A stretch of 64,000 bases of DNA, taken from positions 1 to 64,000 of the forward strand of contig NZ_JAMQQG010000019.1 in assembly GCF_023716925.1 (NCBI RefSeq). The letters run 5' to 3'. The notes under the pieces are model-generated. The model made no database searches, was not told the DNA's origin, and was given only the letters and a program-made list of their open reading frames with translations. Both the position numbers and the translations under genes were made by a program. The stretch is from Frankia sp. R82. Its GTDB lineage: Bacteria; Actinomycetota; Actinomycetes; Frankiales; Frankiaceae. Shown here one piece after another: positions 39,032 through 63,583 of the stretch; position 1 is the stretch's first letter; each line of letters begins with the position of its first letter.

Positions 39032-39135
39032 GCGGCACAGACGGCACGTCCGACCGGACCCGGCGCCTGCCGCCTTCGCGTACCGTCCCCGCCGATCGCG
39101 GCGACCAGCTGCTGGGCGTGGAAGGAACCCGCTGA
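39028..39135 (+). CDS. Possible 35-residue coupled small ORF
   Basis: ATG 39028 overlaps the preceding stop (ATGA) and its own stop overlaps the kinase start (TGATG). The peptide is rich in Arg, Thr, Asp and Gly and lacks cysteine. It may be a real small protein, or only a translational bridge between two genes. It is too short to judge from composition. Confidence 0.35.
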   Translation: MSGTDGTSDRTRRLPPSRTVPADRGDQLLGVEGTR

Positions 39136-39749
39136 TGCTGCGCACCTGCCTGGTCGTCGCGGTCGAAGGCACCCACGCCTCCGGCAAGACCACGCTGACC
39201 CACGCCCTCGCCGCCCACTACCGGGAACGCGGCGTACACGTCGCCTGCGTCCCCGAACCGGCACGCAACAGCCCGTTCATCGAGGAGATCGTCGTGCACG
39301 GCCGCGGTGAGTTCGACCTGGAGACCGAGGTCGACCTGTTCGCCGCCCAGCTGTCCAGCCAGCTCCGCGTCGCCCGCCAACACACGATGATCATCTGCGA
39401 TAAGACAATCGCGAACGTCCTCGCCTACGCCTGGCTCGTCCTGCCCGGCGGCCCCGAGGGTCCACATGCCCCCGTGTTGCACGCGATGGAGACCTTCTGC
39501 CGGGCCTGGGCGCACGTCTACGACGCGGTGTTCTACTGCTGCGACCGCTTCGACCAACAGCAGGCAGGTGACCCCTACCGGTCGAAGGTCCTCGATATCC
39601 AGCCCGCCGCCGATCGGGTCGTGCGCAGCATCTGCGCCACCGTGGGGCAGCGGATCTACGACATCCCGCCGAACATGTCCACCGGCCAGCGGGTCGGCTG
39701 GATAGCCGAGCAGCTGACCGCCCTCGGCCTCGACCCAACCACCCGCTGA
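39135..39749 (+). CDS. P-loop kinase (thymidylate kinase-like)
   Basis: The 204-residue protein starts at ATG 39135. It has Walker A VAVEGTHASGKTTLTHALA and the dTMP-kinase-like layout with VPEPARNSPFIEEIV and MIICDKTIANVLAYAWLVL (DK in place of the usual DR). The end has DIPPNMSTGQRVGWIAEQL. It probably phosphorylates a nucleotide or nucleoside-like metabolite made or used by the operon. It is followed 26 bases later by the N-terminal part of a Nudix gene. Confidence 0.78.
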   Translation: MLRTCLVVAVEGTHASGKTTLTHALAAHYRERGVHVACVPEPARNSPFIEEIVVHGRGEFDLETEVDLFAAQLSSQLRVARQHTMIICDKTIANVLAYAWLVLPGGPEGPHAPVLHAMETFCRAWAHVYDAVFYCCDRFDQQQAGDPYRSKVLDIQPAADRVVRSICATVGQRIYDIPPNMSTGQRVGWIAEQLTALGLDPTTR

Positions 39750-39775
39750 CCTGCCTCCCTGGGAGACTGCGCGCC

Positions 39776-39874
39776 ATGGCGTATACCAGTGTCATCGACG
39801 TCATGCTCCTGCTCATCCGAGACGACGCCGTCCTGCTCGCGCTACGGGCCGGCACCGGATTCGCCGCTATCTAG
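39776..39874 (+). pseudogene. N-terminal fragment of a Nudix hydrolase, cut at the island's left border
   Basis: The frame begins MAYTSVIDVMLLLIRDDAVL and reaches RAGTGFAA, then stops within foreign sequence. Intact Nudix proteins in the window continue TGYADGQ...PSGHLE and the Nudix box. The break is just before the box. A C-terminal fragment starting right at the box lies at 57903. The two together would make one Nudix protein, consistent with an insertion between them. Confidence 0.78.
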
Positions 39875-39935
39875 ACCTGTCCGTCCTTACACATACCGTG
39901 ACCTGCTGCGATGTGTCGCTGACACTGCCAGGCAC
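39863..39935 (+). repeat. 73-bp element-end repeat, copy 1
   Basis: Starting at the GCC of the broken Nudix gene, 73 bases align without gaps to 42448-42520 with 55 identical positions. The best-kept parts are GCCGCTA, GACCTGC, CGATGT and CAGGCAC. Similarity goes beyond the Nudix coding part, so it probably marks the end of the inserted element. Confidence 0.6.
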
Positions 39936-40074
39936 ATGAGTGCGGGCAGTCTCGGTCGGGATCGGATCTTCTCGTCGCCACGCCCGACGGTCGAGTTGCT
40001 CGGCCCTGTCGGGGGTGGCCAGTACCCTCGACGAAGATCGACTCAAATAGGTCGTGTCGGGCAGAGGAGGCATA

Positions 40075-40821
40075 GTGGCGAGCGCGAGTGATCTCAACCG
40101 GGCGCTTCGTGCCGCGCAGCGGCAAGCCGAGCAGCAGCTGAGGCGTGACCTGAAACGGGTCGAGGCCCAAGCTCAACGAGAAGTCGATGCTTATAACCGC
40201 AAGGTTGAAGCCCACAACCGCAAAGTTGTTAGTGACTACAACCGCACTGTTGATCAGCAAAATCGTCGCGCGGTTGCGCACAACAAGAAGGTGATCGACG
40301 ATATCAATCGTCGTCTCGCGGCGCAGGGCCAGCCGCAGGTCCGCTATACGCCACAGGAACAGAAACTGGTCGATCGACTCCACAGCGCGATACCAGTTGA
40401 CGGCCGCGAGTACGACATCTTTCTTAGCTATGCACATATTGACGGCTATGATGTAGCAAACGAACTCTGCACGCGACTCCGAGGGTTCGGGCTCGCCGTC
40501 TGGTTCGACGAGGTGCGAATTCGTCCAGGCAAGAGCCTGTCACGGCAAATGGATGACGGTCTTCGTAAGGCGCGTGCAGGCGTAGCCCTTCTCACGCCTG
40601 CCTATCTGGCCGGACGCTTCTGGACCGAGCGCGAGCTTGGAGCTCTCCTACACAAGGAGACGCTGATCCCAGTCTTGCACGGTACAACTATTGATGACGT
40701 CAAAGAATACAGCGGGATCCTGCCTGATCTCGCTGGATTCAGCACGGCGACCGACACGGTGCTTGACATAGCAGCGAAGATCGCCGGTGCGGTCCTGGAG
40801 GAGGTCGCCGGTTCGAGGTGA
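40075..40821 (+). CDS. Coiled-coil TIR-domain protein
   Basis: The 248-residue protein starts at GTG 40075 behind GAGGAGG. Residues 5-85 are a charged coiled coil with an Asn-Arg-Lys repeat (NRKVEAHNRKV, YNRTVDQQNRRAVAHNKKV). Residues 112-245 are a TIR domain: YDIFLSYAHIDGYDVANEL, AVWFDEVRIRPGKSLSRQ, then LTPAYLAGRFWTERELGALL with the probable catalytic glutamate. Bacterial TIR domains make or cleave NAD-derived signals in anti-phage defence. It is AT-richer than the flanking genes and is probably island cargo. Confidence 0.85.
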   Translation: MASASDLNRALRAAQRQAEQQLRRDLKRVEAQAQREVDAYNRKVEAHNRKVVSDYNRTVDQQNRRAVAHNKKVIDDINRRLAAQGQPQVRYTPQEQKLVDRLHSAIPVDGREYDIFLSYAHIDGYDVANELCTRLRGFGLAVWFDEVRIRPGKSLSRQMDDGLRKARAGVALLTPAYLAGRFWTERELGALLHKETLIPVLHGTTIDDVKEYSGILPDLAGFSTATDTVLDIAAKIAGAVLEEVAGSR

Positions 40822-41046
40822 TGCCAGTCCGTTCAGTTCTATCTCTCGCCTTGTGCAGGAGAATTGTAGCGGCAGCCCCGGAAGGGTTTAGGAAGAATCC
40901 GCCGAAGAAGCTGATCAAATTTGGTTTCGAGGCCATCCGCAGTAGGCGGCATCTAAATGAAACATTAGTTCAGCGTAGACCGGGGCGATAGATTTCCCTG
41001 CCCTCGCAGTGTTGCGCCGAGGTAGCCGAGATAGTAGGGCGATTAC

Positions 41047-42216
41047 ATGTTTGTTCTAGGAACCTGGCAGCAGGCGGATGGACAGCGCGGGTTCGACGTC
41101 CATCCGCTCGTCGATATTACAAGGCAGGAGTTCGATGCCTATCTCGAATCAATCGCCACTTATCGAGCAGTTACCGAGCGCCATACTTACCAGCTACTCC
41201 ACCGCAACTGGAATCAGCTGACCTCTATGCACCGCATGTATGCGAATATCGAGCGAGTCGGGGGAACATTTCGCACTGTAGATAAGCGGGTGATTTCAGT
41301 AGGCTTTATGAGCCTGGTCACGAACTGGCTAACCGCAACCCGCCTATACCTGGAGGCAAATCGCGACTCGATTTCCCAGCGCTTCGGCGAGGCGAGCGAC
41401 GAGTTCCGCCGGTACAAGGCGGCGACCAATGGGGTCTTTGATTCGAACGTGGGCTATCGTTTTCTATACAATCTACGCGATTACGCACAGCATTGCGGTC
41501 CGCCGCTGGGCGGTCTCGTTGTCGCCGCGAATGCCGACGGCTCGCGATCGCTCCAACTCTATCTAAGCCGGTCCGATCTTCTCCTCGCGAAATTCAACTG
41601 GAGCAAACACGCGCGCAAGCTTCTGGATGGTTGGCCGGACAAGATTTTTCTCCTTCCCCTAATAGAGGAAGCGATGTCCGGGTATCGCAAGATCGAGAAC
41701 GAGGTCCTCGCGCTCCTGTTGGAGTACTGCGGAACGGCAATCCCGCGACTACGGGAAGGAATCGGCCGGGTCGGGGTCGCAGAAGGACATCCAGCGGTCT
41801 TTCAGATACAGCGCGAAGTGCCGCGCGAAGAAAGTGGCCAATTCGCATTTCAATCCTTTCCAACAATCTCGATGATCGATGTCGTCGAAGACGCTCTGAG
41901 TAAACAAGATCCGATCTCCGTGTTGCGTACAGATCGAACGCAAGAAGGTGAACCTCGTACGGAGCCGGGGATGCTCCATAGCGACGACCAAGCCGCAGCG
42001 GTCGTAGGAACATGGCTTACTTATGGGTCGGGACCGGAGTTGAGTGGAACCATTGATCGAATCTTGCGTGAAGATCGGGACGTGACGCCACTAGTCAGCG
42101 GGCTTGTAAATATGAGCGTCTTTCTGTTGGAGATGCTCGCGCAGTCCCTCGGCGCCTCGAAGGAGGACCTGCTCGGCACTTTCGTTTCCGATCGGCATCG
42201 CCGTGACGGGCGCTGA
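41047..42216 (+). CDS. Unknown AT-richer island gene
   Basis: The 389-residue protein starts at ATG 41047. It looks soluble and mostly helical, with aromatic-rich stretches (YQLLHRNWNQLTSMHRMYAN, RYKAATNGVFDSNVGYRFL, YNLRDYAQHCGPPLGGL). No catalytic motif or transmembrane segment is seen. Codon use is more AT-rich than the chromosomal flanks. It lies 225 bases after the TIR gene on the same strand, so the two may form a defence pair; this is a guess from position. Confidence 0.6.
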   Translation: MFVLGTWQQADGQRGFDVHPLVDITRQEFDAYLESIATYRAVTERHTYQLLHRNWNQLTSMHRMYANIERVGGTFRTVDKRVISVGFMSLVTNWLTATRLYLEANRDSISQRFGEASDEFRRYKAATNGVFDSNVGYRFLYNLRDYAQHCGPPLGGLVVAANADGSRSLQLYLSRSDLLLAKFNWSKHARKLLDGWPDKIFLLPLIEEAMSGYRKIENEVLALLLEYCGTAIPRLREGIGRVGVAEGHPAVFQIQREVPREESGQFAFQSFPTISMIDVVEDALSKQDPISVLRTDRTQEGEPRTEPGMLHSDDQAAAVVGTWLTYGSGPELSGTIDRILREDRDVTPLVSGLVNMSVFLLEMLAQSLGASKEDLLGTFVSDRHRRDGR

Positions 42217-42354
42217 TTTTGCCTGCACGGTCGAGCCCTGGCAGCAAGAGACAATTCGTGCAGGGTATGTAACCGCTGTTGAAGGTCAACTGACCACCCG
42301 ATCGACTGCCCCGGCGAGACAATTTTCTCAGTTGATGCTCGGAGGTCCGTTCAC

Positions 42355-42480
42355 GTGAAGGAACGATACGGCAGCATCGTGGATGTTCATCTCATCCTGC
42401 GTCGTGAGGGAAGGATCTTGCTTGCGAAGCGTATCAATACCGGCTTTGCCGCTAGCTGGACCGATCCGTCTCTCGATAGA
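42355..42480 (+). pseudogene. N-terminal fragment of a second Nudix gene, broken at the same codon
   Basis: GTG 42355 begins KERYGSIVDVHLILRREGRI and reaches INTGFAAS, then leaves the Nudix sequence. It is nearly the same as the first 35 residues of the intact gene at 44283. The break falls at the same TGFA position as in the fragment at 39776, and a similar 73-base sequence follows. Confidence 0.75.
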
Positions 42481-42520
42481 ACGCGACCTGCGACGATGTT
42501 TTGCTGGCACTGTCAGGCAC
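42448..42520 (+). repeat. 73-bp element-end repeat, copy 2
   Basis: It aligns without gaps to 39863-39935 (55 of 73 positions identical) and, like that copy, begins at the GCC codon of a broken Nudix gene. Confidence 0.6.
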
Positions 42521-42632
42521 GCATCGCTGGCGCCTCGGTACCTTCATATCAGGCCAGAATTCCCGTAACGAGTGCTGATCGGCCTGCAAAGTCCCAGCCT
42601 GGATCAACAGGCAGTCCATACATACATTAAAG

Positions 42633-43973
42633 CTAACCGGAGCGCCGTTGCTCAAGAATAGCCTTAGCCGAGTAGTAATCTTCTTGTGTTCTGGCCTCCG
42701 CTTGCTCGGCTTCCCTGCTCGCCATCCGAGCGGCATCCGCCCTCGTTTGGCTGACCGCAATCTCGGCGCGGAGCGCCTCGATCATTTGCTCAATTTGCCC
42801 GATTTCTCTCGTCAGCCTCAGCTCATCCTCGGCGACACCGCCCGTTTCTGAGCCTCTTCCGACAAGTCGGAGTATACCTTTCTGTCTCAATCTTAGAGAT
42901 TCCAGCTGCGCGGAAGCGGCCGCGTGTCGACTGATGGCGTCTTCAGCCTCCCGTCTACGTACTGCCGCCTCCATCTGTGCTTGCTCTGCCATCTTGCGTG
43001 CGTCCGATGCACGCATTTCTGCCTCAGCCAGCCTGCTTTTGTATTGGCGCTCAGACTCTTCGGCCTCAAGAAGCGTTGAATCACTGACATGAACCTGTAG
43101 AAAATCGCGCCCCTGGCGGAGAAGTGTCCGACTGTTCATTATATGAAACTTGACGCCCGCGACGTCCGACATCTCTTCTTTAAGCTCAGATCGCGGGCCG
43201 ATGGTAAATCCCTGATGGCGAGTTATCCAGTCTTCCTTAACGTCGTTCGTAACCAGGATTACAGGCAGCTTTCGCTTTTTTGCCTCGTCAAGGATCTCTT
43301 TCCATAGGAGGTAGTCTCCAGATGCTCGTTCGCCATCTTTCCCGCCGTCAAAGTCCTTGTACCCCGGGGGAATTCTCGACTTGGCGCGTCGCGCCGCCTC
43401 CTGAACGGCAGCAGCTATACTATCTGCCGATGGCCGGAGCCCTATGTGTCCATCGAAAAGTCTCTCTAGTACGTCAAGCACCGGGTCGCCAGACGTAGCT
43501 TCCGGCAATCTGAGATCGTATTCACTTTGAATGGTTCGAAAGTGAGCGTCGATCGATGAATAAGCCTGACCTAACGTCGCCAGTAGACGTTCTACATCTT
43601 CGCTATCCACGCCGAATCGGCGTCCGAATTCGCCAACGCACGAGACTGCCCCCTCGTGCGTCTTGGCCAGCCTTGCGATGTACCCCTCCGGCTCCCTCAT
43701 TCTCTCACCGATGACAGGCATCCGATTTTGATGAAATTCTAATGCAACTTGATAAGGAATCCACAGACGATCCCCGAACAGCTCCAATAGACCAAGAAGC
43801 TCCCCGCGGGCTTCTTTGGTGTATCGATAAAGATCCAAGAGGACATTAGTATCAAGTACAACGAGTCCAGATTGGAGTATTTCTGCCTGCTCAACGGTCG
43901 ACAACTGATAGAAGCCAGGGAACAAGCTTCGAAAGCTTCCGCCGATCGGTTCGGCTGGTTTGGCGGGATCCAT
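42633..43973 (-). CDS. PIN-like domain protein with C-terminal coiled coil
   Basis: The 446-residue protein starts at ATG 43973. Residues 10-260 fit the PIN_8-type nuclease: FPGFYQLSTVEQAEILQSGL leads to VVLDTNVLLDLYRY with the first acidic residue, IPYQVALEFHQNR carries the second, and LPVILVTNDVKEDWITR the last. After about residue 290 a long coiled coil follows (SRLAEAEMRASDARKMAEQA, EIGQIEQMIEALRAEIAV). PIN proteins cut RNA; this type is often found in defence or toxin contexts. It lies opposite in direction to its neighbours, between two Nudix copies. Confidence 0.82.
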   Translation of the reverse strand: MDPAKPAEPIGGSFRSLFPGFYQLSTVEQAEILQSGLVVLDTNVLLDLYRYTKEARGELLGLLELFGDRLWIPYQVALEFHQNRMPVIGERMREPEGYIARLAKTHEGAVSCVGEFGRRFGVDSEDVERLLATLGQAYSSIDAHFRTIQSEYDLRLPEATSGDPVLDVLERLFDGHIGLRPSADSIAAAVQEAARRAKSRIPPGYKDFDGGKDGERASGDYLLWKEILDEAKKRKLPVILVTNDVKEDWITRHQGFTIGPRSELKEEMSDVAGVKFHIMNSRTLLRQGRDFLQVHVSDSTLLEAEESERQYKSRLAEAEMRASDARKMAEQAQMEAAVRRREAEDAISRHAAASAQLESLRLRQKGILRLVGRGSETGGVAEDELRLTREIGQIEQMIEALRAEIAVSQTRADAARMASREAEQAEARTQEDYYSAKAILEQRRSG

Positions 43974-44282
43974 GTCGCTATGGTAGACCCGACCTGCACG
44001 CACAAGCTATCGGGCGTCGGCGAAAAATCTGTTGATCAACATGAAAGGCTTGCCGACCTGCAGCGACGCGCCCCTGCGCAGACAGCGGACTGGCAGCCAG
44101 CCGATGGCTCGTGCGGCAGTCTGATCGTTGCCGGCCTCAGTGCATCTCGATCTACCCGACCTTAGGCGCTCGTGGCCTCGGTCAATGCTCGGTATCCTAT
44201 TGCTGCCGACTGATGGAGCGAGTTCGCTTACCAGCTTCCCCCTACGCGCCGCCCCATGGTTGAAATTTGGAGGTTCACCAAC

Positions 44283-44726
44283 ATGAAGGAACGGTACGGC
44301 AGCATCGTCGATGTTCATCTCGTCCTTCGACGGGAAGGCAAGGTCTTGCTGGCGAAACGACTGAATACCGGTTTTGGTGACGGGTGTTTTAATCTGCCGA
44401 GCGGACACCTGGAACGAGGTGAGTCGGTCATCGACGGCGTAATCCGGGAGGCGAAGGAGGAGATCGGTATTGTAGTGGAGCCGGCGGCGCTAAGGTTCCT
44501 GCACGTCATGCACCATCGTGGCGGCTCTGGTGACGCGAGGATCGGTTTCTTCTTCGAGGCCGAGAGGTGGGAGGGTGAGCCGACAAACCTGGAGCCGGAC
44601 AAGTGCGGCGGCCTGGTGTGGGCGGATCCGGATACGCTTCCAGAAAACACAGTGTCCTATCCGGCGGCGGGTATCGCGCAGTGTCAGAGTGGCGCGCCGT
44701 TCTCGGTGGATGGTTGGGACCGCTGA
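44283..44726 (+). CDS. Nudix hydrolase, intact island copy A
   Basis: The 147-residue protein starts at ATG 44283 with TGGAGG upstream. The Nudix box is complete: GHLERGESVIDGVIREAKEE followed by IG (GX5EX7REUXEEXGU). The rest, with FFFEAERWEGEPTNLEPDKC and LPENTVSYPAAGIA, matches copy B at 54760. These enzymes cleave nucleoside diphosphates linked to another moiety. Its last 43 bases overlap the antisense end of the tnpC-like gene, so the recombinase module abuts its 3' end exactly. Confidence 0.88.
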   Translation: MKERYGSIVDVHLVLRREGKVLLAKRLNTGFGDGCFNLPSGHLERGESVIDGVIREAKEEIGIVVEPAALRFLHVMHHRGGSGDARIGFFFEAERWEGEPTNLEPDKCGGLVWADPDTLPENTVSYPAAGIAQCQSGAPFSVDGWDR

Positions 44727-45127
44727 GGGCCACGGGTGCGACGTAGGTCGCGAAGTTGGCCGAGCGCGGTCGCGAGTTCGTGGTTGAGCCGGGCGTTCTC
44801 GGTGGTGAGGCGGCTGATCCGGTTGCGGAGGGCACGGACGACGTGCTCGTGTGATTCGGCGGAAATGCGATGTCCGGCGGGCCGTGCAGACCGCGTGCTG
44901 CTCTGGTCACGGCCGGCCGCGATTCCGCGGAGCCGGGCGAGGAGAGCCTGCTGAGCTGGGTCGTAGAGGAAGGTGCGGGAGACATTGGCTTTGGCGGCGA
45001 CGGCCGCGACGCTGACAGGGTCGGCGGTGTGTTCGAGGTCGTCGAGGATGGCGTGGACGCGGGCGGTGCAGGCGAGGCTGCGTTGCTGGGCTGCGGCGGC
45101 GAGATGGTGGCTGTTGTCAGCAAGCAT
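44684..45127 (-). CDS. TnpC-like accessory protein of a Tn554-type module
   Basis: The 147-residue protein starts at ATG 45127, 11 bases inside the end of the tnpB-like gene. It has an HTH-like part (VSVAAVAAKANVSRTFLYD) and a C-terminal coiled coil (RALRNRISRLTTENARLNHE). Size, position and fold match the small third protein of Tn554-like transposons (DUF6262 type), which guides the two recombinases. The 3' end runs into the Nudix gene on the other strand. Confidence 0.72.
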   Translation of the reverse strand: MLADNSHHLAAAAQQRSLACTARVHAILDDLEHTADPVSVAAVAAKANVSRTFLYDPAQQALLARLRGIAAGRDQSSTRSARPAGHRISAESHEHVVRALRNRISRLTTENARLNHELATALGQLRDLRRTRGPQRSQPSTENGAPL

Positions 45128-48526: not shown

Positions 48527-48732
48527 CCACCGGTCTCCCGTCGCTCCCCGTCGTGAACAGTGGTCAGCAACGTACTGTCAGCTACGGAGCAGAAGGGGTG
48601 CGGAGTCGCACGTGGCGGGCGTGTCTGACAGTGGCCCGTCAGGTCCAAATAGTCGCGGACGGCCAGTACAACGTTCCGGAGGTTCTCTAGGCTTCGCTTT
48701 GTTGTCGGTTCGAGAGCCTCCGGGAGATCGTG
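48527..48732. promoter_or_regulatory. Divergent promoter region between the two recombinase modules
   Basis: This 206-base gap must drive tnpA leftwards and the three-recombinase set rightwards. It contains CTGTCAG near 48565 and its reverse complement CTGACAG near 48632, a possible recombinase or regulator binding pair. CTGTCAG also occurs in the 73-bp repeat at 42510. Confidence 0.4.
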
Positions 48733-50298
48733 ATGGAGAACAGCGCGTCCTGGATAGTTGAATTCTATGACCTTACAGCCAAGCTTCCTCAGGCTGAGGT
48801 TGACGGGATCGGCGGGCTGGGTGATATACACGAGCGGGCGGCGCGTAACGGCGCGCGGCATGGCACGCCGCTTATCATGAAAACGTCCGGGATGGCCGAT
48901 GCCCGGCTTAACCTGTTCTTCCGCACCGGTCCGATGGCCGCGGCGCAGCCGTCGACATGGCGGCGGTACGCCTACTCGCTGGTGGTCTGGCTGAATTTCC
49001 TGGAGGTGTTCGGGCGGCAATGGGACGCGGCGACTGCGGGCGATGTGGAGGGGTTCAAGGACTGGCGGGTGACCGACCGGGCGAACGACGGCCGGGTCGC
49101 GCCGGCGAGTTTCGACGCGGACCGGGCGGCGCTGAACTGCTTCTACTCGTGGGCGGCGGTGCGCTACGGCGTGGCCAACCCGGTTCCCTCCGGCCGGTGG
49201 GCGCGTGCCGGCCGGCCAGGTGACGATGTCGATGGCCGGCGTGGGTCTCGGGACCCGCTGCGTCCGGCCGGGGCGACACGGCGGCAGGTGAAGTGGCTGT
49301 TGCGGTCGGCGTTCGAGCAGTGGCGGGACATCGGCCTGCGTGGCTACGGCTTCGACGGCGTCCGTCGGTCGAATTGGTGCGGCCCGTATGAGGATCGGGA
49401 TGCCGCGTTCGTCGACGGGCTGTATGGGACGGGGCTGCGGCTGACCGAGTGGGCGAGCATCCTCGACGTGGAGCTTCCCGGCGAGGGCGAGGATCGTTTT
49501 CCTCGGGCGTGGCTGGCGGCGGCGTGTGCGAAGGGTGGCCGGCACGGGCGGGTCTACCGGATACCGCGTCGGGTGCTGACGGCGGTGCGCGGTTACGTGG
49601 ACCCTCAGGAAGGCTCACGGGGCGAGAGGGTCCGCTGGGCGCAGCACGCCGGCCGCTACGAACAGCTGACCGTCCGGCGGATCGTCACCGGCTACAACGC
49701 CCGCTCCCGCATCCTCACGCTGGAGGGTGTGGATGGGCCGGTCCGTATGTCGGTGGACGTGCTGAGCCCGCATGAGCGCCGCGGTCTGTTCCGCCGGACG
49801 GATGATGGTCTGGAACCGCTGGCTGTGTGGCTGGGACGCGATGGGCTGCCGAAACATGCGCACGGCTGGGAGGACACCTTCACCGCCGCAAACCGCCGTG
49901 TTGCAGGGGCGTGGACGGCTGCGGGCCGGGTGGGGCATGTGCCGTTGTGGTGCACGCCGCATATGTGCCGGCACAGCTTCGCACTGAAATGGTTCTCTAT
50001 CCTGTCGATGGTATGGGACAACCGATTGGCGGGTTTCACTGCCGAGGAGCTGAAGGACTACCGGGCCCAATTCGGCGATATCTGGTATCAGCTCGCCGGC
50101 CTTCTTGGGCATGCCGATCCGTCGACGACCCGCGACCATTATCTGGAACCGTTCACCCGTCTGGACGTCGACTATCTGATGGCTCTGCTGGACGGCGAGG
50201 AGCAGACCGCCGTCGAGGTGCTGCTGCGCGCGGTGGCCGTCGACAGCGGCCGTGTGCTCACGGGGATGGACCTGACCAGCCCGGCGGGCGCCGGGTGA
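48733..50298 (+). CDS. Tyrosine recombinase 1 of the plus-strand trio
   Basis: The 521-residue protein starts at ATG 48733 (GTG 48730 is an alternative) behind GGGAGA. The core-binding domain has TWRRYAYSLVVWLNFLEVFG. The catalytic marks are GTGLRLTEWASI (first arginine, near residue 235), CTPHMCRHSFALKWF (HxxR, near 410) and LLGHADPSTTRDHYLEPF (LGH and tyrosine, near 465). All residues are present, so it should be active. It is the first gene of a four-gene overlapping set. Confidence 0.85.
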   Translation: MENSASWIVEFYDLTAKLPQAEVDGIGGLGDIHERAARNGARHGTPLIMKTSGMADARLNLFFRTGPMAAAQPSTWRRYAYSLVVWLNFLEVFGRQWDAATAGDVEGFKDWRVTDRANDGRVAPASFDADRAALNCFYSWAAVRYGVANPVPSGRWARAGRPGDDVDGRRGSRDPLRPAGATRRQVKWLLRSAFEQWRDIGLRGYGFDGVRRSNWCGPYEDRDAAFVDGLYGTGLRLTEWASILDVELPGEGEDRFPRAWLAAACAKGGRHGRVYRIPRRVLTAVRGYVDPQEGSRGERVRWAQHAGRYEQLTVRRIVTGYNARSRILTLEGVDGPVRMSVDVLSPHERRGLFRRTDDGLEPLAVWLGRDGLPKHAHGWEDTFTAANRRVAGAWTAAGRVGHVPLWCTPHMCRHSFALKWFSILSMVWDNRLAGFTAEELKDYRAQFGDIWYQLAGLLGHADPSTTRDHYLEPFTRLDVDYLMALLDGEEQTAVEVLLRAVAVDSGRVLTGMDLTSPAGAG

Positions 50299-52160
50299 CC
50301 GCCGGCGTGGGTGGCCGGCGTGCGACGCAGCCGGCGGCGGGTTGGCGGCCACCGCAGCGGCTGGCGGCGGACGGGGGCGGCCTGCGGGTGCGGTTCGTTG
50401 AGGAGTCCGGCCAGCGGGAGCGGACGTTCGATTTCGCCGGTCTGCCCGTCGAGCGAGACGTGCAGCTCTGGCTGGTCCGGGTGTTCGTCCGCCGGGCCGG
50501 TCCGCGGTCGGCGACGAAACGGATGAGCACCGCCGTGGGACACTTCGACATCCTGCGAGGCTTCGCCGCGTCGCTCGCCACGGCGTCGCCGCCCCCGCGC
50601 GGCCCGGCCAATCTGCGGCCCGCGCACCTCACCGGGTTTCTCCTGCGCTACCGTGGTCAGCCCAGCGAGCGGGAGTATCTCAAGCGGCTGCGGGTGCTGC
50701 TGCGGGACGATCCGGAGCTGCCGGAGCCCACGCGGAGCGCGCTGGTGTCCGCGCGGCTCGCGCCAGCGGCGCCGGTGAGCCCAGTTGTCGGCTACGGCGA
50801 CACGGAATGGCAGCAGATCATGACCGTGGTGCGGCAGGATGTGCGGCTGGCCCGGGACCGCATCCGGGCCGGCCGCCGGCTGCTCGATCGTTTCCGCGCC
50901 GGTGGCCTGCCCTCCGATAGCCCGGAGGCCGGGCTGGGGGTGTTGTTGGATGTCTTCGATCGCACCGGTGATTTTCCTCGGGTCGGCTCGGGCGTGCATT
51001 CCCGGGCTGTCCAGAAGGCCGGTGGCATGACCGGCCTCGGCAGGCGGCTGTGCCTGTCCAGCGATGAGGCGGTCGCGTTCTGCCTGCTGCTGGTCGCGTT
51101 GACCGGGGAGAACTTCGGCACGGTCGCCGCGTGGCCGGCGGCACACCACCGGCCGGACGGCGGCGACGGCGACACCAGTGTTGCTCTGGTCGAGGAGGTC
51201 AAGCCGCGGCGCGGGCCTGACCGGGAGCACATGGTCATCGCGTTGGAGGACCTGCCCGCCGGCGTGCCCGCAGTGCTGGAGGCAGCCGGTGAGGAGACAC
51301 GACTGTTCCGCTCTCCGCTGCGGGTCTACCAGCTGCTGGTGGAACTGACCGAGCTCTCCCGCCGGCACGGCGGCCACACCCTGGCATTCAGCACCTTCGT
51401 GCCCCGGCCCGGCCCGCTCGGCTCCCGCTGGACCGAAGGGGTCAACGCCACGGACCTGCTGTGGTGGGCCCGGCGCCGCGGCTTCCCGGCCGCCGCCGAG
51501 GCGGGTCCGGATACGAAGCCGGCGGTGCATGTCGGACGCCTGCGCCAGACTGTGATCGAACGCCGCCGGCAGCCGATCGCCCATACCCGGCAGACCATGA
51601 ACGACCACTATCTGCGGCGCAGCCGCACGGTCCAGGACGACAGCCGCATGGTGGTCGGTGCCGCGCTGCGCGAGCAGGTCGACAGCGCGCGGGCAGCCCA
51701 GGGCATGCCGGTGCTCACCGTGGCCTTCCTGGACCATGCCCGCCGCGATCCGGCCGCCGCGGCGGCTACGGCCGGGATGGAGCCGGACACCCTTCGCCGC
51801 CTGATCTCCGGGGTGCAGGACACCGCTCTTGCCTCCTGCACCGACCATCGCAACGGCCCGCACGCCGCAGCGGGGCAGCCGTGCCCGGTGTCGTTCCTGG
51901 ACTGTTTGGACTGCTCGAACGCCCGCGCGCTGCCGCATCAGCTCGGCGTGCAGATGCTGGCCGCCGAGCGGCTGCGCGGGCTGCGGCCGAACCTCACCCT
52001 GGCTGTCTGGGAGGCGCACCTGCGTCGACGTCTCGACCAGCTGGAGGAGATCCTGAACCACTACACTGCGGCCGAACGCGACCAAGCGCGCGCCGCGGTG
52101 ACTGCCCGCCAGCAGCAGCTCGTGGACGACCTGCTCGACGGCCGCTGGGACCTACGATGA
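50295..52160 (+). CDS. Degenerate tyrosine recombinase 2 of the plus-strand trio
   Basis: The 621-residue protein starts at GTG 50295, overlapping the previous stop. It has the same general layout, but the first arginine region reads LTGENFGTVAAW with no arginine, and the HxxR box is HVGRLRQTVIERR. HTRQTMNDHYLRRS keeps a histidine and tyrosine. The end carries a CxxC-type cluster (PCPVSFLDCLDCSNARALP). It probably binds the element ends without cutting, as the middle member of a recombinase trio. Confidence 0.72.
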   Translation: MTAGVGGRRATQPAAGWRPPQRLAADGGGLRVRFVEESGQRERTFDFAGLPVERDVQLWLVRVFVRRAGPRSATKRMSTAVGHFDILRGFAASLATASPPPRGPANLRPAHLTGFLLRYRGQPSEREYLKRLRVLLRDDPELPEPTRSALVSARLAPAAPVSPVVGYGDTEWQQIMTVVRQDVRLARDRIRAGRRLLDRFRAGGLPSDSPEAGLGVLLDVFDRTGDFPRVGSGVHSRAVQKAGGMTGLGRRLCLSSDEAVAFCLLLVALTGENFGTVAAWPAAHHRPDGGDGDTSVALVEEVKPRRGPDREHMVIALEDLPAGVPAVLEAAGEETRLFRSPLRVYQLLVELTELSRRHGGHTLAFSTFVPRPGPLGSRWTEGVNATDLLWWARRRGFPAAAEAGPDTKPAVHVGRLRQTVIERRRQPIAHTRQTMNDHYLRRSRTVQDDSRMVVGAALREQVDSARAAQGMPVLTVAFLDHARRDPAAAAATAGMEPDTLRRLISGVQDTALASCTDHRNGPHAAAGQPCPVSFLDCLDCSNARALPHQLGVQMLAAERLRGLRPNLTLAVWEAHLRRRLDQLEEILNHYTAAERDQARAAVTARQQQLVDDLLDGRWDLR

Positions 52161-54277
52161 CCACCGCGGCGCAGGCGCATACCGAGGATGCCGCCGGCTG
52201 GCCGGACGACGACACGACCGTGCTGGCAAGCCGGCCGCTGCGCCCCGGCACCGACGACACGCTGCTGTCCCGCTTCGGTGACATGATCTGGCAGCTGAGC
52301 CCGGCGCATCCCGACGCGCACGTCACCGTCACCGCGCTGGACTGGCGGCGCTACCCGGCGCGGCTGGTCCGGCCGTTCAAATCGTTCTTCCACGCGGCGC
52401 TGGAACAGCCCTACCCGGCGTCGCCGACCGGGCAGCGGCCCGGTAAGCGGCCTAGCGTTGCCACGCTCAGCTACTGGTTTGTCGACGTGCTGGTCTTCGC
52501 CACCTGGCTCGACGAGCACGCCATCGGCGGCCTGAGCGAGGTCACCGCTGCCGACCTGGACGCCTACCGGTCCCACATCCTCGGGCTGGGCCGCAGCCCC
52601 GCCCGCCAAGCGGATCTCCTCGCGGCCGTCCGCACCCTCTGGCTCTACCGCGACCGTCTTCCGGCCGCATGCCAGCTCGAAGTCTGCCCGTGGGACGGAC
52701 TCGCGGCCAAGGACCTGGTCCGCCTCCCACCCGCCGGCAGGGAGAACGCCACCCCCCGGATCGCCCCCGCGACGATGGACGCTCTGCTCGCCTGGGCGCT
52801 ACGCATGGTCGAAATGCTTGGCCCGGACATCCGCGACGCCTGGCACGAGTTCCACGACCTCGACGCGGGCACCCACCCCTCCCAGCAGATCTACGACGGG
52901 CTGGGCATCCCCGACCGCCTGGATCTGTTCCTTCACCACGCCCGCAGACGCGGAAGCCCGCTGCCCGGACGGCACGACCCCGCCCGGGGCACCGCCGTCA
53001 ATGGAGCTCACGTTCTGCGCCTGGTCGGGGTTCCCCCGGACAAACGCGCCGGGCTGCCCCCGCGGCAGCGGGCGCTGCTGGAAAACGCGGGCCTCCCGAT
53101 CGCCGCCGACACCACCGTCGGTGGCATCACCGCACGGATCGACGGCGTCCCCTGGCGGCCCGGACCGATCAGCATCCGCGAACTGCCCACCCTGGTGCGG
53201 CTGCTCTACGCCTCCGCCTTCACCGTCATCTGCTATCTATCGGGCATGCGCCCCGGTGAGGTCCTCACCCTGCCCCACGGCTGCTCCGGCAGCGACCCCC
53301 GCACCGGTGAGCTGCTGGTGCACGGCCGGCGCGGCAAGGGCTACGACCGCAGCCCCCTGACCCCCGGGCAGGCCGAACCCGACCGGCCCTGGGTCGTCGT
53401 CGCCCCGGTCCACACCGCCGTGCAGCTGCTGGAGACCCTCGCCAACTTCCCGTTCCTGTTCCCCGCCAGCCCGATCGCCGCCCACACCAGCCGGGCCAAC
53501 ACCACCCACGCCCGCTCCACCGCCGCCATCAACCAGGACCTGGAAGACCTCGTCACCTGGGTCAACACGACCTTCACCCACCCGGGCGGCACCCCACCGA
53601 TCCCACCCGACCCGACCAAGCACCTCCACGCCACCCGCTTCCGACGCACACTCGCCCACACCATCGTCCGCCGCCCCCGCGGCCTCATCGCAGCCGCCCT
53701 GCAATACGGACACGTCCACACCAAGGTCACCCTGAACTACGCGGGCGCTGCGGACATCTCCTGGCTCGACGACCTCGCCATCGAACGCCTGGAAATGGTC
53801 ATGGAACAGATGCAGACCGACGCCCGGCGCCTCGCCAACGGCGAACACGTCAGCGGACCCGCCGCCACCGAATACCGCGCCCGCGTCGCGAGGTTTCACG
53901 GCCGGGTCGTCAACCAGACTCGCAACGCCCGCCGGCTCCTCACCAACTCGGACCCCGACGTCCACCACGGCGACGGCCTGACCTGCGTCTACCGCGCCGA
54001 GACCGCCGAATGCCGCCGCATCCTCGCCGGGCAGGGGATCACCCCCGATGGGCCCCAGGAGTCCCACTGCCGTTCAACCTGCTCCAACCTCGCCTACACC
54101 GACCGCAGCATCGACCAGCTTCGCGCCCGGCTCGGCCTCTTGGGCGCCGCCATCGGCGACCCCCTGACACCGCAGCCACTCCGCGACCGCGCCCACGCAC
54201 AGGCCCAAACCGCGAGAGCCACCATCGACCGGCACGTCTCATCCTCCCCCGATCGGGCAGACCAGGCAGGCCACTGA
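52157..54277 (+). CDS. Tyrosine recombinase 3 of the plus-strand trio
   Basis: The 706-residue protein starts at ATG 52157, overlapping recombinase 2. It has an N-terminal core-binding domain (YWFVDVLVFATWLDEHAIGG). The catalytic residues are in YLSGMRPGEVLTLPHG, HLHATRFRRTLAHTIV and LQYGHVHTKVTLNYAG. A cysteine pair (HCRSTCSNLAYTD) near the C-terminus may bind zinc. The large insert between core-binding and catalytic parts is usual for TnpB-like members. It should be active. Confidence 0.84.
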   Translation: MTTAAQAHTEDAAGWPDDDTTVLASRPLRPGTDDTLLSRFGDMIWQLSPAHPDAHVTVTALDWRRYPARLVRPFKSFFHAALEQPYPASPTGQRPGKRPSVATLSYWFVDVLVFATWLDEHAIGGLSEVTAADLDAYRSHILGLGRSPARQADLLAAVRTLWLYRDRLPAACQLEVCPWDGLAAKDLVRLPPAGRENATPRIAPATMDALLAWALRMVEMLGPDIRDAWHEFHDLDAGTHPSQQIYDGLGIPDRLDLFLHHARRRGSPLPGRHDPARGTAVNGAHVLRLVGVPPDKRAGLPPRQRALLENAGLPIAADTTVGGITARIDGVPWRPGPISIRELPTLVRLLYASAFTVICYLSGMRPGEVLTLPHGCSGSDPRTGELLVHGRRGKGYDRSPLTPGQAEPDRPWVVVAPVHTAVQLLETLANFPFLFPASPIAAHTSRANTTHARSTAAINQDLEDLVTWVNTTFTHPGGTPPIPPDPTKHLHATRFRRTLAHTIVRRPRGLIAAALQYGHVHTKVTLNYAGAADISWLDDLAIERLEMVMEQMQTDARRLANGEHVSGPAATEYRARVARFHGRVVNQTRNARRLLTNSDPDVHHGDGLTCVYRAETAECRRILAGQGITPDGPQESHCRSTCSNLAYTDRSIDQLRARLGLLGAAIGDPLTPQPLRDRAHAQAQTARATIDRHVSSSPDRADQAGH

Positions 54278-54717
54278 TGACCCGACAACCCCGGAATCTG
54301 CTGGCGGAAAGATCTGCCATCGAGGCAGCGACCGCGCGTCTGCTTGCCGGAACCCCGGTGCGCTCTCGCTCCGGCAAACTCACCATCACCGAACTGATCG
54401 TCGAATCCGGCCTACGCCGCGACGTCGTCTACGCCGACCACTCCCACCTGGTCGAGGTCTTCCATACCCTGGTCAAGGTCCAGAACTCCGCACCCAGCAC
54501 CATGCAGGACCTCGCCGACGAGAATGCCGACCTCACGCAGAAACTCGCAGCATCCAGAGCCGAGCTGGCCGAGGAACGCGCCTCCGCAGCGACCTTGCGC
54601 AGACTCATCGTCGAGCTGTCTCTGGAACTGAGCCAAGCGCACGACCAAGGACGTGATCAGAGGAACGTCGTCCGTCTCAGGTCACGCACAGACCCGCACC
54701 TCATCGGCCCCTGCTGA
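54277..54717 (+). CDS. TnpC-like accessory protein of the plus-strand set
   Basis: The 146-residue protein starts at ATG 54277, whose first base is the last base of the previous stop (TGATG). It has an HTH-like part (LTITELIVESGLRRDVVYAD) and a coiled coil (ENADLTQKLAASRAELAEER). It has the same size, order and fold as the protein at 44684-45127. It ends 43 bases before a complete Nudix gene. Confidence 0.7.
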   Translation: MTRQPRNLLAERSAIEAATARLLAGTPVRSRSGKLTITELIVESGLRRDVVYADHSHLVEVFHTLVKVQNSAPSTMQDLADENADLTQKLAASRAELAEERASAATLRRLIVELSLELSQAHDQGRDQRNVVRLRSRTDPHLIGPC

Positions 54718-54759
54718 CGAACCCCCTTCTCGACCCAACCAAATGTTGCGAGGAGACCT

Positions 54760-55239
54760 GTGCCGGAACGTTACCGCAGCATCGTTGACGTCTATGTCCT
54801 GCTCCGAAAAGACAGCAAGATCCTCCTCATGGAACGCGCCAACACCGGATACGCCGACGGCCAACTCTGCCCACCCAGCGGCCATCTCGAAGAGGGTGAG
54901 TCTGTTGTCGACGGTGCGGTGCGAGAGGCCGCGGAGGAGGTCGGAATTACACTCCATCCGGATGATCTTCAGTGTGTGCACGTCGTACATCACCGCAACC
55001 CGCAAGGTCAAGGGCGGATCGGTTTTTTCTTCTCCGTCGACCGTTGGGAGGGTGAACCGGAAAACCAGGAGCCCCACAAATGCGCTAACCTACTCTGGGT
55101 CGACCCTGATTACCTACCATCAAATACGGTTGAGTACACAGCTGCGGCCGTTGCTCAAATCCGAGCTGGCTGCACATTTTCGACTCACGGCTGGGAGGAA
55201 AGAGGGCATTTCCATGCCGTAGCAGGCCCAGTTCCGTAG
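54760..55239 (+). CDS. Nudix hydrolase, intact island copy B
   Basis: The 159-residue protein starts at GTG 54760 behind GAGGAGA. It has the complete Nudix box GHLEEGESVVDGAVREAAEE followed by VG, then FFFSVDRWEGEPENQEPHKC. It is closely similar to copy A and to both fragments. It stands directly downstream of the plus-strand recombinase set, just as copy A abuts the minus-strand set. Confidence 0.88.
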   Translation: MPERYRSIVDVYVLLRKDSKILLMERANTGYADGQLCPPSGHLEEGESVVDGAVREAAEEVGITLHPDDLQCVHVVHHRNPQGQGRIGFFFSVDRWEGEPENQEPHKCANLLWVDPDYLPSNTVEYTAAAVAQIRAGCTFSTHGWEERGHFHAVAGPVP

Positions 55240-55276
55240 CTGTCTGATGTAGCTCGGCACAGCTTGGAGCGAGTTT

Positions 55277-57322
55277 TTACGTGCTGCCTTTATTGATGAA
55301 CGAGATCAGCCATCTCGCGACGTTAGCGAGTACCTGTTCGGCTTCCTCCTCCGAGAGTGAGGCCAAGGTCTTACCTCCCGGATTTGCGTGCTGGAAGCGG
55401 GACAGTTCCGGTGTTTGACTGAATGCGCTTGCGCGTACCAGGATGGGAACGACTCGGCAGCCACCACCCTCAGCGGCGGTGAGCAGAGCGGGTAGCTCCA
55501 CACGGCGAATGAAGTCGGAGGCTAGAAAGTCGGCGCTGATCAGCAGTATCGCGAAGCGGGCGCGGTCCAGCGCATAAGTAATCTCATCTTCCCAGTTGGC
55601 GCCTATCTCGATACGTTTGTCCGACCAGACGTCTATAACACCCATACGTTCCAGGGGGTCGAGGTGCATTAGGAGGCGCTCCTGCCAACCCGTGTCTGCG
55701 TGGCTGTAGCAGACGAACGCGTGATCGCGGGGCGTCGGCAGTCGTTTACCTACCTCTGACATGAGCGTGTCCCGTCTCAGCTGGCGTAGATAGAAGAGGA
55801 GTTGTGGATCGTCTGCCATGACCCGATTACTGCGGGCGTCATAGAAGAAGTGCCGCGCCAGTAGGCTCTCAGGCGGATCTTGACCGGCAGTAGGACCGAT
55901 TCTTTTCAAGGCCATCATGAGAGACAATGACTGCGTGCGCGCGTTGTCGAGAGCCACGACTCCGTCGTCAGTACGACCTATTTCGAGGAGCAGGTCGACG
56001 CAGGTCGCTTCGTTGGGTGCATCCATCGCCGCAAACTCGTACACGGCCGCTCTGTACTTTATTCTCAACTCATCAGCGACCTGCGCCCGCACGGCGTGCA
56101 GGTCCGTCTGCACGACAGTCTGCTCGGGCATCGTCTCCTCGACGCCTGCGAGTGCCGCTAGATGTGAACACAGCGACTGAGCAGTTATTAAGCTACCGGC
56201 CGAGGTCCGAATGATTTGTTTCTTATTCTTGAACGAGATATTGAGCGCGCCCTCGCCTTTAGCTATCAGCTCGCCGATCTGCTTGCGACTCGCCGGGCCA
56301 AGACGGAATACTCGGATGCGGTTTGCGACGTCGAAACTTGCACTGACCAGGGATGCCGCCGTTTCAGGGATGCCGATAATGACGAGCTTGCCGGAAGAAT
56401 TTGGATCATCCGCGAGTCGCTTCAGATAGTCAACCAGTAGACGCTGAGTATCGTCCGGCAGGCGGTGGAAGTCGTCTATCACGATGATTCCGATGTGCCC
56501 GTCGAGTGGAAGTCGCTTGATAAGCCCGACGTCATCCGGCTTGCGGGCGGTGTAGGTCACGACCGGCCCGAGGCGCGCGGAGTCTTGGCTCACCGCCCAG
56601 TCTAGCAGCGTCGTTTTTCCGATTCCGGAAGGTCCCTCAACTACCACGCAAAGGCCGCGCTGTCGTAGAGCCAGGCGAAACGGGATGTACTCCTTGGGTG
56701 CGACGAAGGTTACCGAAGGTACGCCAACCGGCTGGAAGACATCCTCCAGCCGACTCGTCTGGCGTTCTCCGAACGGCGCTTCACGCCCTACCGGAAAGTC
56801 AGGTTCAGCAGCAGGCTTCCTCCTGTCCGATGGCGGCAGGGAATGAGGCTGTGGAAACTCTGGCGCCATCTTCGCTTTCGATCTTCCGGAAAGGGCCGCT
56901 GAGAGTCCGGAAAGCAGTCGATCTCTCGCTGCGGACTCGCTGAGTCCTGCTAGGTTAAGATAAACGAGACTGCTCAGCAGGCCCGGCGGAGGAGTATAAG
57001 TGTCATCGACCTTAACGGGGAGGATCCGTCGCCTGGAACCGTCGGGGTCGCTACTCCAGGCAGCTTGCCATTCACCCTCACTGAACACCGAGTCGGTGTA
57101 GGCGGCGGAGAGGATTACGAGCACCGTCCTGGAGAGGGAGATGCCCTGACTGAGCCGCGATTCCCACGAGCTGCCAGGGGTGAAGTCCCACGCCTGAATA
57201 AGTACCCTGTAGCCTGCCTCCTCAAGAGTCCAAGCGATCCACTCGGCCCATCCTCTGTCTGCGTCGGCGTAGGAAATAAAGAAGTCCTGTGCTGCGGCTT
57301 CCTCTCCAGCCTCTCGACCCAT
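55277..57322 (-). CDS. TIR - P-loop NTPase - TIR protein
   Basis: The 681-residue protein starts at ATG 57322. Residues 12-145 are a first TIR domain (QDFFISYADADRGWAEWIAW, SQGISLSRTVLVILSAAY, FSEGEWQAAW with possible catalytic Glu). Residues about 195-480 are a STAND/AAA-type NTPase: Walker A EGPSGIGKTTLLDW at 229-242 and Walker B IGIIVIDDFHRLPDD at 277-291. Residues about 530-665 are a second TIR domain (HAFVCYSHADTGWQERLLMH, DVWSDKRIEIGANWEDEI, DFIRRVELPALL). A sensor-switch-effector protein of anti-phage type is likely. Two TIR domains at opposite ends are unusual. Confidence 0.84.
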   Translation of the reverse strand: MGREAGEEAAAQDFFISYADADRGWAEWIAWTLEEAGYRVLIQAWDFTPGSSWESRLSQGISLSRTVLVILSAAYTDSVFSEGEWQAAWSSDPDGSRRRILPVKVDDTYTPPPGLLSSLVYLNLAGLSESAARDRLLSGLSAALSGRSKAKMAPEFPQPHSLPPSDRRKPAAEPDFPVGREAPFGERQTSRLEDVFQPVGVPSVTFVAPKEYIPFRLALRQRGLCVVVEGPSGIGKTTLLDWAVSQDSARLGPVVTYTARKPDDVGLIKRLPLDGHIGIIVIDDFHRLPDDTQRLLVDYLKRLADDPNSSGKLVIIGIPETAASLVSASFDVANRIRVFRLGPASRKQIGELIAKGEGALNISFKNKKQIIRTSAGSLITAQSLCSHLAALAGVEETMPEQTVVQTDLHAVRAQVADELRIKYRAAVYEFAAMDAPNEATCVDLLLEIGRTDDGVVALDNARTQSLSLMMALKRIGPTAGQDPPESLLARHFFYDARSNRVMADDPQLLFYLRQLRRDTLMSEVGKRLPTPRDHAFVCYSHADTGWQERLLMHLDPLERMGVIDVWSDKRIEIGANWEDEITYALDRARFAILLISADFLASDFIRRVELPALLTAAEGGGCRVVPILVRASAFSQTPELSRFQHANPGGKTLASLSEEEAEQVLANVARWLISFINKGST

Positions 57323-57902
57323 GCCGTTATTGTGCCACCCGCGTCCCCGGTTCCGTGGATCGGCACCGTCGGGTGCTAGACGAGATCCCCACCATGCGGG
57401 CAAGGGCTGTCTGGACGAGAGGGCGCCGGCGCTCCGCTGCCGCGGACGTGTCCGGTCGCGGTACCTGTTCCGAGCACCATCTGGAGACCAAAGACCTTGG
57501 GGCGGTCTGAAGTGGACGTAGGTGTCGGACGTGACGAGATGCTCGGTGAGCCGCTGTGGTGCGGCCGAGGCCGCTGATCCGGCTCGTGCTCAGGCATCCG
57601 GTATCGAGGACGACCGCCCATCGATGATCGGGTGACGCCTAAGGCGATCTTACCGGTCCGACCGAGGCGCTGTGCCGCAGCAGAACCGCCAATCGCGTTG
57701 TTCGTTACCTCGGGTGACCTGCTGGAGGCAGCAGGACAGGCTGGTTGCGGCGAACGGTTGCGGGTGTCACCGATGCAAGTTGGTATCAGGACGCCGGACG
57801 GCTCAGAGCTCCAGCGCGATCTTGACGCAGGTATGTGACACCCGGGAGTGCCCCTGATCGAGATCCCGCAGCCTAGAAGGCGACAGCCTGCTTGCCTACT
57901 GA
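57323..57902. other. Gap at the right end of the island
   Basis: It has no gene I can support; a 68-codon frame at 57632-57838 has no family or ribosome-binding site. It should contain the right end of the inserted element. I saw no clear reverse or direct copy of the 73-bp left-end repeat here. Confidence 0.45.
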
Positions 57903-58247
57903 ACCTCCGGCAAACTCGAAGATGGTGAGGACGTCGCCAGCGCGGTATGCCGCGAAGCCCGCGAGGAGATCGGCCTCGACCTGACCCCGGCGTCGCTCAC
58001 CCTCGCATCCACCGTCCACTACCGGAACGAACACGGGGACGCGAGACTGGGCCTGTTCTTCCGCCCAGATCACTGGCAAGGCGAACCGGTCAACGCCGAA
58101 CCGCACAAATGCGCCCACATAGCCTGGTACCCCCTGGGAGCGCTGCCCGACAACACCTACCCCTACACGCGGATCGGTGTCGAGCTGCATCGGAAGCGGC
58201 AGAACTTCGCCGCCACCGGGTGGACACCTGCCGACACCAGTAGGTGA
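57903..58247 (+). pseudogene. C-terminal fragment of a Nudix hydrolase, right border of the island
   Basis: The frame starts at SGKLEDGEDVASAVCREARE and EIG, a complete Nudix box, then LFFRPDHWQGEPVNAEPHKC and NTYPYTRIGVELH, and stops at 58245. The N-terminal strand and the start codon are missing, and stops occur just upstream. It begins almost exactly where the fragment at 39776 ends, so the two were probably one gene; about six residues are missing between them. Confidence 0.8.
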
Positions 58248-58444
58248 CGTCGCGCGGCGCGGACGGCCGCGTAGGTGGGCAGCAGGCGGACCTGGTGAAC
58301 CGGGCGCCAACCTGCTCCATCGGCTGCCCAGGTGTTCGCCACGGTGGTCAAGAACGTCCGACCGTTCGACGCGAAGTCGACGCCGCGGCCGAAGTTCTGG
58401 GCGCTGTAGGCCCCGTCTGCGCAGGTGACGGCCCTGCCAGGTGG

Positions 58445-58473
58445 GGAACTACTTGTTCGCGTTGCAGGGAATG
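58445..58473 (+). promoter_or_regulatory. 29-bp element, copy 6
   Basis: GGAAC-N5-GTTCG, then N7 and GGGAATG. It lies 116 bases upstream of the second radical SAM gene. The rest of the 342-base gap shows no gene. Confidence 0.7.
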
Positions 58474-58589
58474 ACCAACCTGGTTGATGTCGCGGACAGT
58501 GACAGGTGCTACACGCACACCGTCGAGGCCGGTCCCATCCGGGGCCATCCGTACGGCGGTGGAGCACCGTCCGTCCGGAAGGCATCGCC

Positions 58590-63418: not shown

Positions 63419-63522
63419 CTGGTCTCCCCACCGTCCGTTCGACGACGGCCAGATCCGGCATCCTCTCGCAAGACTTCGCAGATCAGATCAGCGTCCGCGC
63501 AGGTCACGGCCCTACGGACCGG

Positions 63523-63551
63523 GGAAAGACTTCTCCGTGTCCCGGAGAATG
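63523..63551 (+). promoter_or_regulatory. 29-bp element, copy 7 (weaker)
   Basis: GGAA-N7-TCCG-N7-GAGAATG keeps the spacing with two changes in the half-sites and one in the last box. It lies 261 bases upstream of the last gene; two hairpins lie in between. Confidence 0.5.
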
Positions 63552-63583
63552 TTTTCTGCTGCATCGCGCGGCAGACTGGAGTT

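Follow-up and report, generated by a model that had tools for sequence, protein, structure and literature searches.

A probable Tn554-related transposon terminus repeated at one codon of two Nudix genes in Frankia sp. R82

The window analysed here, a stretch of 64,000 nucleotides from Frankia sp. R82, contains a 73-base tail that follows two truncated Nudix genes. This tail is very probably the cargo-side terminus of a Tn554-related TnpA/TnpB/TnpC transposon, of which two insertions occurred at the same Nudix codon, with a second element located 24 bp further on in the same host gene. The ends, the cores, the reconstruction of the empty site and the linkage to the recombinases are established from the nucleotide sequence itself, and the positions of all features are collected in Table 1.

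Table 1. Features of the nested elements and of the host Nudix gene in the window.
Feature	Position	Strand	Basis
N-terminal fragment A of host Nudix gene, ending in core TCGCCG	39776..39866	+	86-89% identical to intact Nudix genes of relatives
Left (cargo-side) terminus A	39867..39939	+	CTATCTAGACC...CTGACACTGCCAGGCAC; 55 of 73 bases shared with terminus B; end also present in three copies inserted in DUF4158
TIR-domain protein	40054..40821	+	Pfam TIR_2 8e-18; PADLOC 1e-35, candidate PDC-S66, ThsB-like TIR
Cargo protein without Pfam or PADLOC match	41047..42216	+	Pfam and PADLOC searches
N-terminal fragment B, element-type Nudix gene, ending in core TTGCCG (42446-42451)	42355..42451	+	82% DNA identity to Nudix C up to break
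Left (cargo-side) terminus B of element bearing tnpCBA	42452..42524	+	Alignment to terminus A
PIN_8 domain protein	42633..44003	-	Pfam PIN_8 2e-56
Intact Nudix C, in first element beside tnpC	44283..44726	+	Pfam NUDIX 2e-16; 57% identical to Nudix D
tnpC (DUF6262, Tn554 TnpC-like)	44684..45121	-	Pfam DUF6262 1e-5; position as in relatives
tnpB, long tyrosine recombinase, 771 aa	45117..47432	-	Phage_integrase 4e-18; HxxR and Y motifs; 61% identity to L180 tnpB
tnpA, tyrosine recombinase, 365 aa	47429..48526	-	Phage_integrase 4e-29; 72% identity to L180 tnpA
Right (tnpA-side) terminus, ending in GGTCCAAATAG (48642-48652), then core TCGCGG (48653-48658)	48527..48658	+	96% identical in G033; 11-bp inverted repeat with left terminus
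30-bp middle piece of host Nudix gene, encoding FADGQYNVP and separating the two elements	48653..48682	+	Joining with A and E restores frame
Second tyrosine-recombinase element, four-gene module plus cargo	48683..57903	+	tnpA-side end TTCTCTAGGCT at 48683; far end GCCTACTGAA at 57894-57903, less certain
Second-element recombinase genes	48730-50298, ~50157-52160, ~52157-54277, small 54274-54717	+	Tyrosine-recombinase motifs; homologues on actinobacterial plasmids
Intact Nudix D, in second element	54760..55239	+	Pfam NUDIX 2.5e-18
TIR-AAA-TIR protein, Thoeris-type TIR by PADLOC	55277..57403	-	Pfam TIR_2 1e-49; PADLOC ThsB 1e-21
C-terminal fragment E of host Nudix gene	57910..58247	+	73% identical to C-half of L004 Nudix; L003 continuous over site
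Target sequence at Nudix insertion point			TTCGCCGAC; Nudix codon region TTCGCCGACGG

The repeated 73-base tail

The original prediction had noted two Nudix fragments broken at the same codon and followed by a common 73-base sequence, and this is confirmed. Fragments A (39776) and B (42355) end at the same codon, and the ungapped alignment of 39863-39935 with 42448-42520 contains 55 identities over 73 positions (blastn E = 4e-11), while the next-best ungapped 73-mer on either strand of the window reaches 37. The first four bases of the tail (GCCG) are part of a 6-bp core, TCGCCG at 39861-39866 for A and TTGCCG at 42446-42451 for B, and the element proper therefore begins at 39867 and 42452, respectively. 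Every tail also contains a near-perfect dyad, CTGACA-N-TGTCAG (39918-39930 and 42503-42515 in the window, and in the other tails), which is likely to be a protein-binding site.

Coding for one conserved protein, which had been named beforehand as a competing cause of the similarity, was checked and ruled out, since the mismatches are spread evenly over the codon positions (7, 5 and 6) and stops are present in most reading frames. Duplication of a block of Nudix gene plus tail was rejected as well. Fragment B shares 82% DNA identity with the intact Nudix C (44283) up to the break and fragment A does not; fragment A is the host gene of a kinase-Nudix locus, an arrangement that is also present in related genomes. 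Because A and B are different paralogues with the tail alone in common, the tail is not the remnant of a simple duplication, and conservation of the tails exceeds what the neighbouring genes would lead one to expect.

Cargo genes and short conserved sites follow each other in an array-like order, as would be expected if the tail were an integron-like attC site and the Nudix fragments were cassettes. This is scarcely credible, given that the single-strand hairpin is no stronger than those of shuffled sequences in three of the four copies, that there is no integron integrase and that the tail pairs with the other end of the transposon.

Ends, cores and genes of the first element

That other end is on the tnpA side. 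In the window it reads GGTCCAAATAG, TCGCGG and ACGGCC and runs on into Nudix codons, and in genome G033 it reads GGTCCAGATAG, TCGCCG and ACGGCTGGTTCAACCT. The left tails begin with CTATCTAGACC and CTAGCTGGACC, and the right ends, taken as reverse complement, begin with CTATTTGGACC and CTATCTGGACC, forming an inverted repeat. The proposal that the 73 bases are an element end is thus borne out: the tail pairs with the tnpA-side end by this 11-bp repeat, and the same end is found in the Streptomyces copies L180 and G591. In addition, copies of CACTGTCAG.CAC are present in both element ends. The 6 bp flanking each end (TCGCCG, TTGCCG and TCGCGG) are the Nudix codons F-A-D, just before the Nudix box.

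Between 42452 and 48652, the first element has the features of a Tn554-related transposon. It encodes the tandem tyrosine recombinases TnpA and TnpB, one of them long, with a small downstream TnpC (DUF6262), and its TnpA and TnpB are homologous to the staphylococcal and enterococcal TnpA/B. The DUF6262 match of the window's TnpC (E 1e-5) is below the curated cut-off, and that of its counterpart in L198 is above it. The position of tnpC is matched in L180, L198 and a staphylococcal Tn554-family element, and L180 and L186 agree with the window in both the position and the annotation of this gene. The element is flanked by a 6-bp core with no other target duplication, and in the window copy the left and right cores (TTGCCG/TCGCGG) are not identical, with at least one base different between them. 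The insertion site is fixed within a protein-coding gene, being the same codon in Nudix A, Nudix B and G033, and the same DUF4158 codon in three copies. The targets are Nudix and DUF4158, not radC. As radC is the site of the Firmicutes members, this places the first element outside the radC-specific branch, with its kinship to the wider Tn554-related group kept.

The host Nudix gene and its empty site

The relative L003 carries a single intact Nudix gene that is continuous over the insertion site. Its DNA matches 38272-39864 (86%) and 57898-59392 (84%) of the window, with a gap of only 14 bases between the two matches, and approximately 18 kb is therefore located inside one Nudix gene in Frankia sp. 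R82. Fragment A, 48653-48682 and the sequence from 57910 onward, when joined, give an open 150-aa Nudix protein (MAYTSVIDV...TGFADGQYNVPEGKLEDGED...; Pfam NUDIX 7e-15), with spacing exactly as in five relatives. With the alternative 6-bp core CCTCCG, the joined gene would read PSGK, not PEGK.

An element that brings a Nudix 5' half and regenerates a complete Nudix gene at its right, with Nudix C as the regenerated target, would give the observed order of N-half, tail, cargo, N-half, tail, cargo and complete Nudix C, and would fit the 82% identity between the N-parts of B and C. It is very unlikely, however, because A and E join in frame via the 30-bp piece at 48653, which makes E, and not the C-part of Nudix C, the host C-half. 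Moreover, the element end at 48652 is well past Nudix C, and in G033 what directly follows the tnpA end is a Nudix C-half on its own.

In G004 (L004 1953-3046), an intact Nudix gene is directly followed by the region corresponding to window 63097-64000, and the right side of the Nudix locus thus also varies among relatives.

Copies in other genomes

Window 47684-48672 has a 95.7% identical counterpart in G033, which at the same codon passes into a Nudix C-half. The tnpA copy of G033 is 96% identical at the amino acid level, and the identity extends upstream of the gene and stops at the Nudix C-half. The tnpA end and the Nudix C-half are all that G033 retains; at this locus (L148 8640-9960) the 5' part of tnpA is fused to the Nudix C-half. 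In the Nudix piece there, the frame shifts by one base at PSG, where the second element inserts. Outside the window, no Nudix gene was found that holds a complete element, with its two ends and the two halves of the gene.

A Streptomyces plasmid (L180) has tnpA (72% amino acid identity), tnpB (61%) and a gene for DUF6262, arranged as in the window. Its left end reads GATGAGC, AGGCCG and TTATCTGGACC, with the tail at the tnpC side, and its right end reads GTACAGATAG, AGGCCG and AGGCGTACGG, so that the core AGGCCG is present at both ends. This 4.5-kb element is inserted in a Tn3-family DUF4158 gene, and the joined flanks restore the frame (Pfam DUF4158 3e-15). The G004 tail likewise follows the first codons of a DUF4158 gene and is located at the codon used in L180. 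A further copy, G591, came from a search of 354 Streptomyces genomes with tnpA as the sole query, and a tail model built from four known tails, with G591 left out, matched it at the predicted element side (E=2.6e-14). The G591 tail is located in a DUF4158 gene together with the recombinase trio, with the cores AGGCTG and AAGCTG (L198). The expectation that the tail always follows a truncated Nudix gene was therefore wrong, as G004, the Streptomyces plasmid and G591 have the DUF4158 gene of a Tn3-family transposase instead; the expected company of recombinases does hold in both Streptomyces cases, which carry the same trio.

In G004, the tail is approximately 100 bp from an IS1634-type transposase gene and could be taken for the end of such an insertion sequence or of another passenger. 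This is extremely unlikely, since no such transposase accompanies the tail in the window, L180 or L198, and both complete Streptomyces copies end exactly at the tail and the tnpA end, with matching cores.

Tail copies elsewhere were found by profile and pattern searches, which were needed because plain DNA searches of the family genomes and plasmids gave nothing outside the window. A 20-base tail pattern was present only at the three known places in 35 family genomes. Weak R2 matches in G029, G181, G219, G352 and G360 (E 0.003-0.01) are probably due to chance. Two weak tail-like matches of equal score (E 0.004) are located 600 bp apart in G029 (L191, L196; G029:C61:67233-67893). No tnpA relatives were found in viral contigs. 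Relatives with a more distant tnpA have CAGATAAC as their end, and at least two of them border on transposase fragments; upstream of tnpA in L157 and L159 (G039 and G037), transposase gene fragments of DDE_Tnp_1_4 and IS3-type HTH_21 are present.

The second element

A pattern search showed that 48730-54717 encodes three tyrosine-recombinase-type proteins and one small protein, for which Pfam matches were weak or missing; this is the layout of GInt/SE-type elements. The sequence TTCTCTAGGCT directly follows the 30-bp host Nudix piece, just upstream of the first module gene, and also occurs in four homologous plasmid modules. The putative far end, GCCTACTGAA, was placed from a 9/11 inverted repeat, weak as a match alone, at the point where the host Nudix gene resumes. 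Of the proposed link between the tail and the recombinases at 44684-54717, the part concerning tnpA/B/C (44684-48526) stands, and the part concerning 48730-54717 falls, since those genes belong to this second element with different ends.

In a Streptomyces plasmid relative (NZ_CP108490.1; L181 4900-5480 and L187 near 9.5 kb), an unrelated Nudix gene is split at LPG/G of the Nudix box. This relative is in the opposite orientation and carries TetR and MFS genes as cargo, and the plasmid record starts inside the element. Of this relative and three others, this one was seen to lie in a Nudix gene. Two other Streptomyces plasmids (L183 and L184, 500-7050) carry two four-gene modules back to back, with NUDIX and MFS genes between them.

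Cargo and carried Nudix genes

The TIR (40054), TIR-AAA-TIR (55277) and PIN_8 (42633) proteins make the cargo phage-defence-like. Nudix C and Nudix D are each located beside the tnpC of their own element, and the broken Nudix B probably held the tnpC-adjacent place in the first element formerly. A recognisable Nudix gene was not found in the Streptomyces DUF4158 elements. Nudix C-like genes were also considered as general partners of such recombinases, and this was rejected, as loci in Nocardia and others have none of the window's recombinases within approximately 8 kb.

Three genes at this one locus suggest that the carried Nudix may compensate for the broken gene or may act in exclusion, as has been reported for Pif of pSAM2 (PMC3218068). 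A broader and rather doubtful idea is that two unrelated tyrosine-recombinase transposon families converged on adjacent codons at the Nudix box, each with an intact Nudix gene of its own that would provide compensation or Pif-like immunity and would also serve as a fresh landing site, resulting in the nesting of defence genes.

Proposed mechanism and history

The recombinases would exchange strands at the 6-bp target core, which is TCGCCG, TTGCCG or TCGCGG in this lineage, and movement would follow the Tn554 or a copy-out route. The predicted product is target N-half, core, CTATCTRGACC...tail...cargo...tnpC<-tnpB<-tnpA...GGTCYARATAG, core, target C-half. One element would have entered the host Nudix gene (terminus A), and another, whose transposase genes are kept, would have entered a Nudix gene carried by an element, at the corresponding codon (terminus B). 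The evidence supports the earlier suggestion that two Nudix genes were each entered at the same codon by an element of one family. In the simplest history, the second insertion took place in the Nudix gene of the first element, and the stretch between the two right ends was then lost. The four-gene element may have entered the host gene afterwards, or may already have been there.

A second right-end-like sequence was not found in the window, including between the two left ends. With one tnpA-side end left, recombination between ends has probably deleted the copy that lay between, and two left termini with one right terminus argue that the history was not a simple pair of complete insertions. 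The same distribution of ends would be seen if terminus A were the solo end of a defective or partial element and 39867-48652 now moved as one composite using terminus A. This is a serious possibility, if not the favoured one; there is no direct counter-evidence, and it is a variant of the best explanation with regard to history, not to the identity of the tail as a cargo-side terminus.

Comparison with known systems

Tn554 relatives carry tnpABC, use a fixed radC site and leave the target unduplicated (PMC3788773), and the 6-bp core of the Tn554 family may differ between the ends (PMC7843796). Like this family (Tn554, Tn558, Tn559, Tn5406 and Tn6188), the first element has a tnpA (about 361 aa in theirs), a long tnpB and a tnpC with DUF6262, as well as a fixed site inside a protein gene, a 6-bp core and variable cargo. 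Unlike the family, it has a longer TnpB (771 aa, with an N-terminal extension), targets Nudix or DUF4158 instead of radC, carries TIR/PIN genes and a Nudix gene, and has a defined 73-bp end on its cargo side. A staphylococcal plasmid tnpA/tnpB/DUF6262 set adjoining a RadC (JAB) fragment matches the TnpB of the window. Of the target-site rule that the original prediction had considered new, the fixed site with a 6-bp core is already the Tn554 rule, and the Nudix target is the new part; Tn554 together with Nudix was not found in the open literature.

In the available part of Van Houdt et al. 2012, actinobacterial Tn554-related transposons are defined from plasmids and chromosomes, with one abnormally long and one normal tyrosine recombinase and often a TnpC, as in the window (PMC3414803). 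That part gives no termini, core or target gene for these elements, unlike those of the window element, and includes among its plasmids pNOCA01, which carries L182, a relative of the second element (PMC3414803). A paper from 2023 gave Staphylococcus and Enterococcus as the only hosts of Tn554-related elements and described their movement as untested (PMC10214605). The second element resembles GInt/SE-type elements in its layout of one small gene beside three of recombinase type. A 6-bp fingerprint is left by SEs, which have been reported from Gammaproteobacteria only (PMC5385486, PMC10214605), whereas the second element is actinobacterial. The Nudix gene mutT is likewise disrupted by site-specific insertion of Streptococcus ICEs (PMC4701971), but these are conjugative and use serine-integrase triplets, which are unrelated enzymes.

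Exact ends, cores and targets can now be given for actinobacterial Tn554-related transposons, which were formerly recognised mainly by their recombinases. The defined ends make these transposons searchable, as the four-copy terminus model that found a fifth illustrates, and the Tn554 mechanics (6-bp fingerprint, excision and circle junction) become testable outside the Firmicutes. The locus also shows a defined route by which phage-defence-like genes may stack at one gene, a single housekeeping Nudix. The first element belongs to a known kind, the actinobacterial Tn554-related transposons; what appears to be new is the use of Nudix and DUF4158 genes as targets, the defined end on the cargo side and the presence of two element families nested within one gene.
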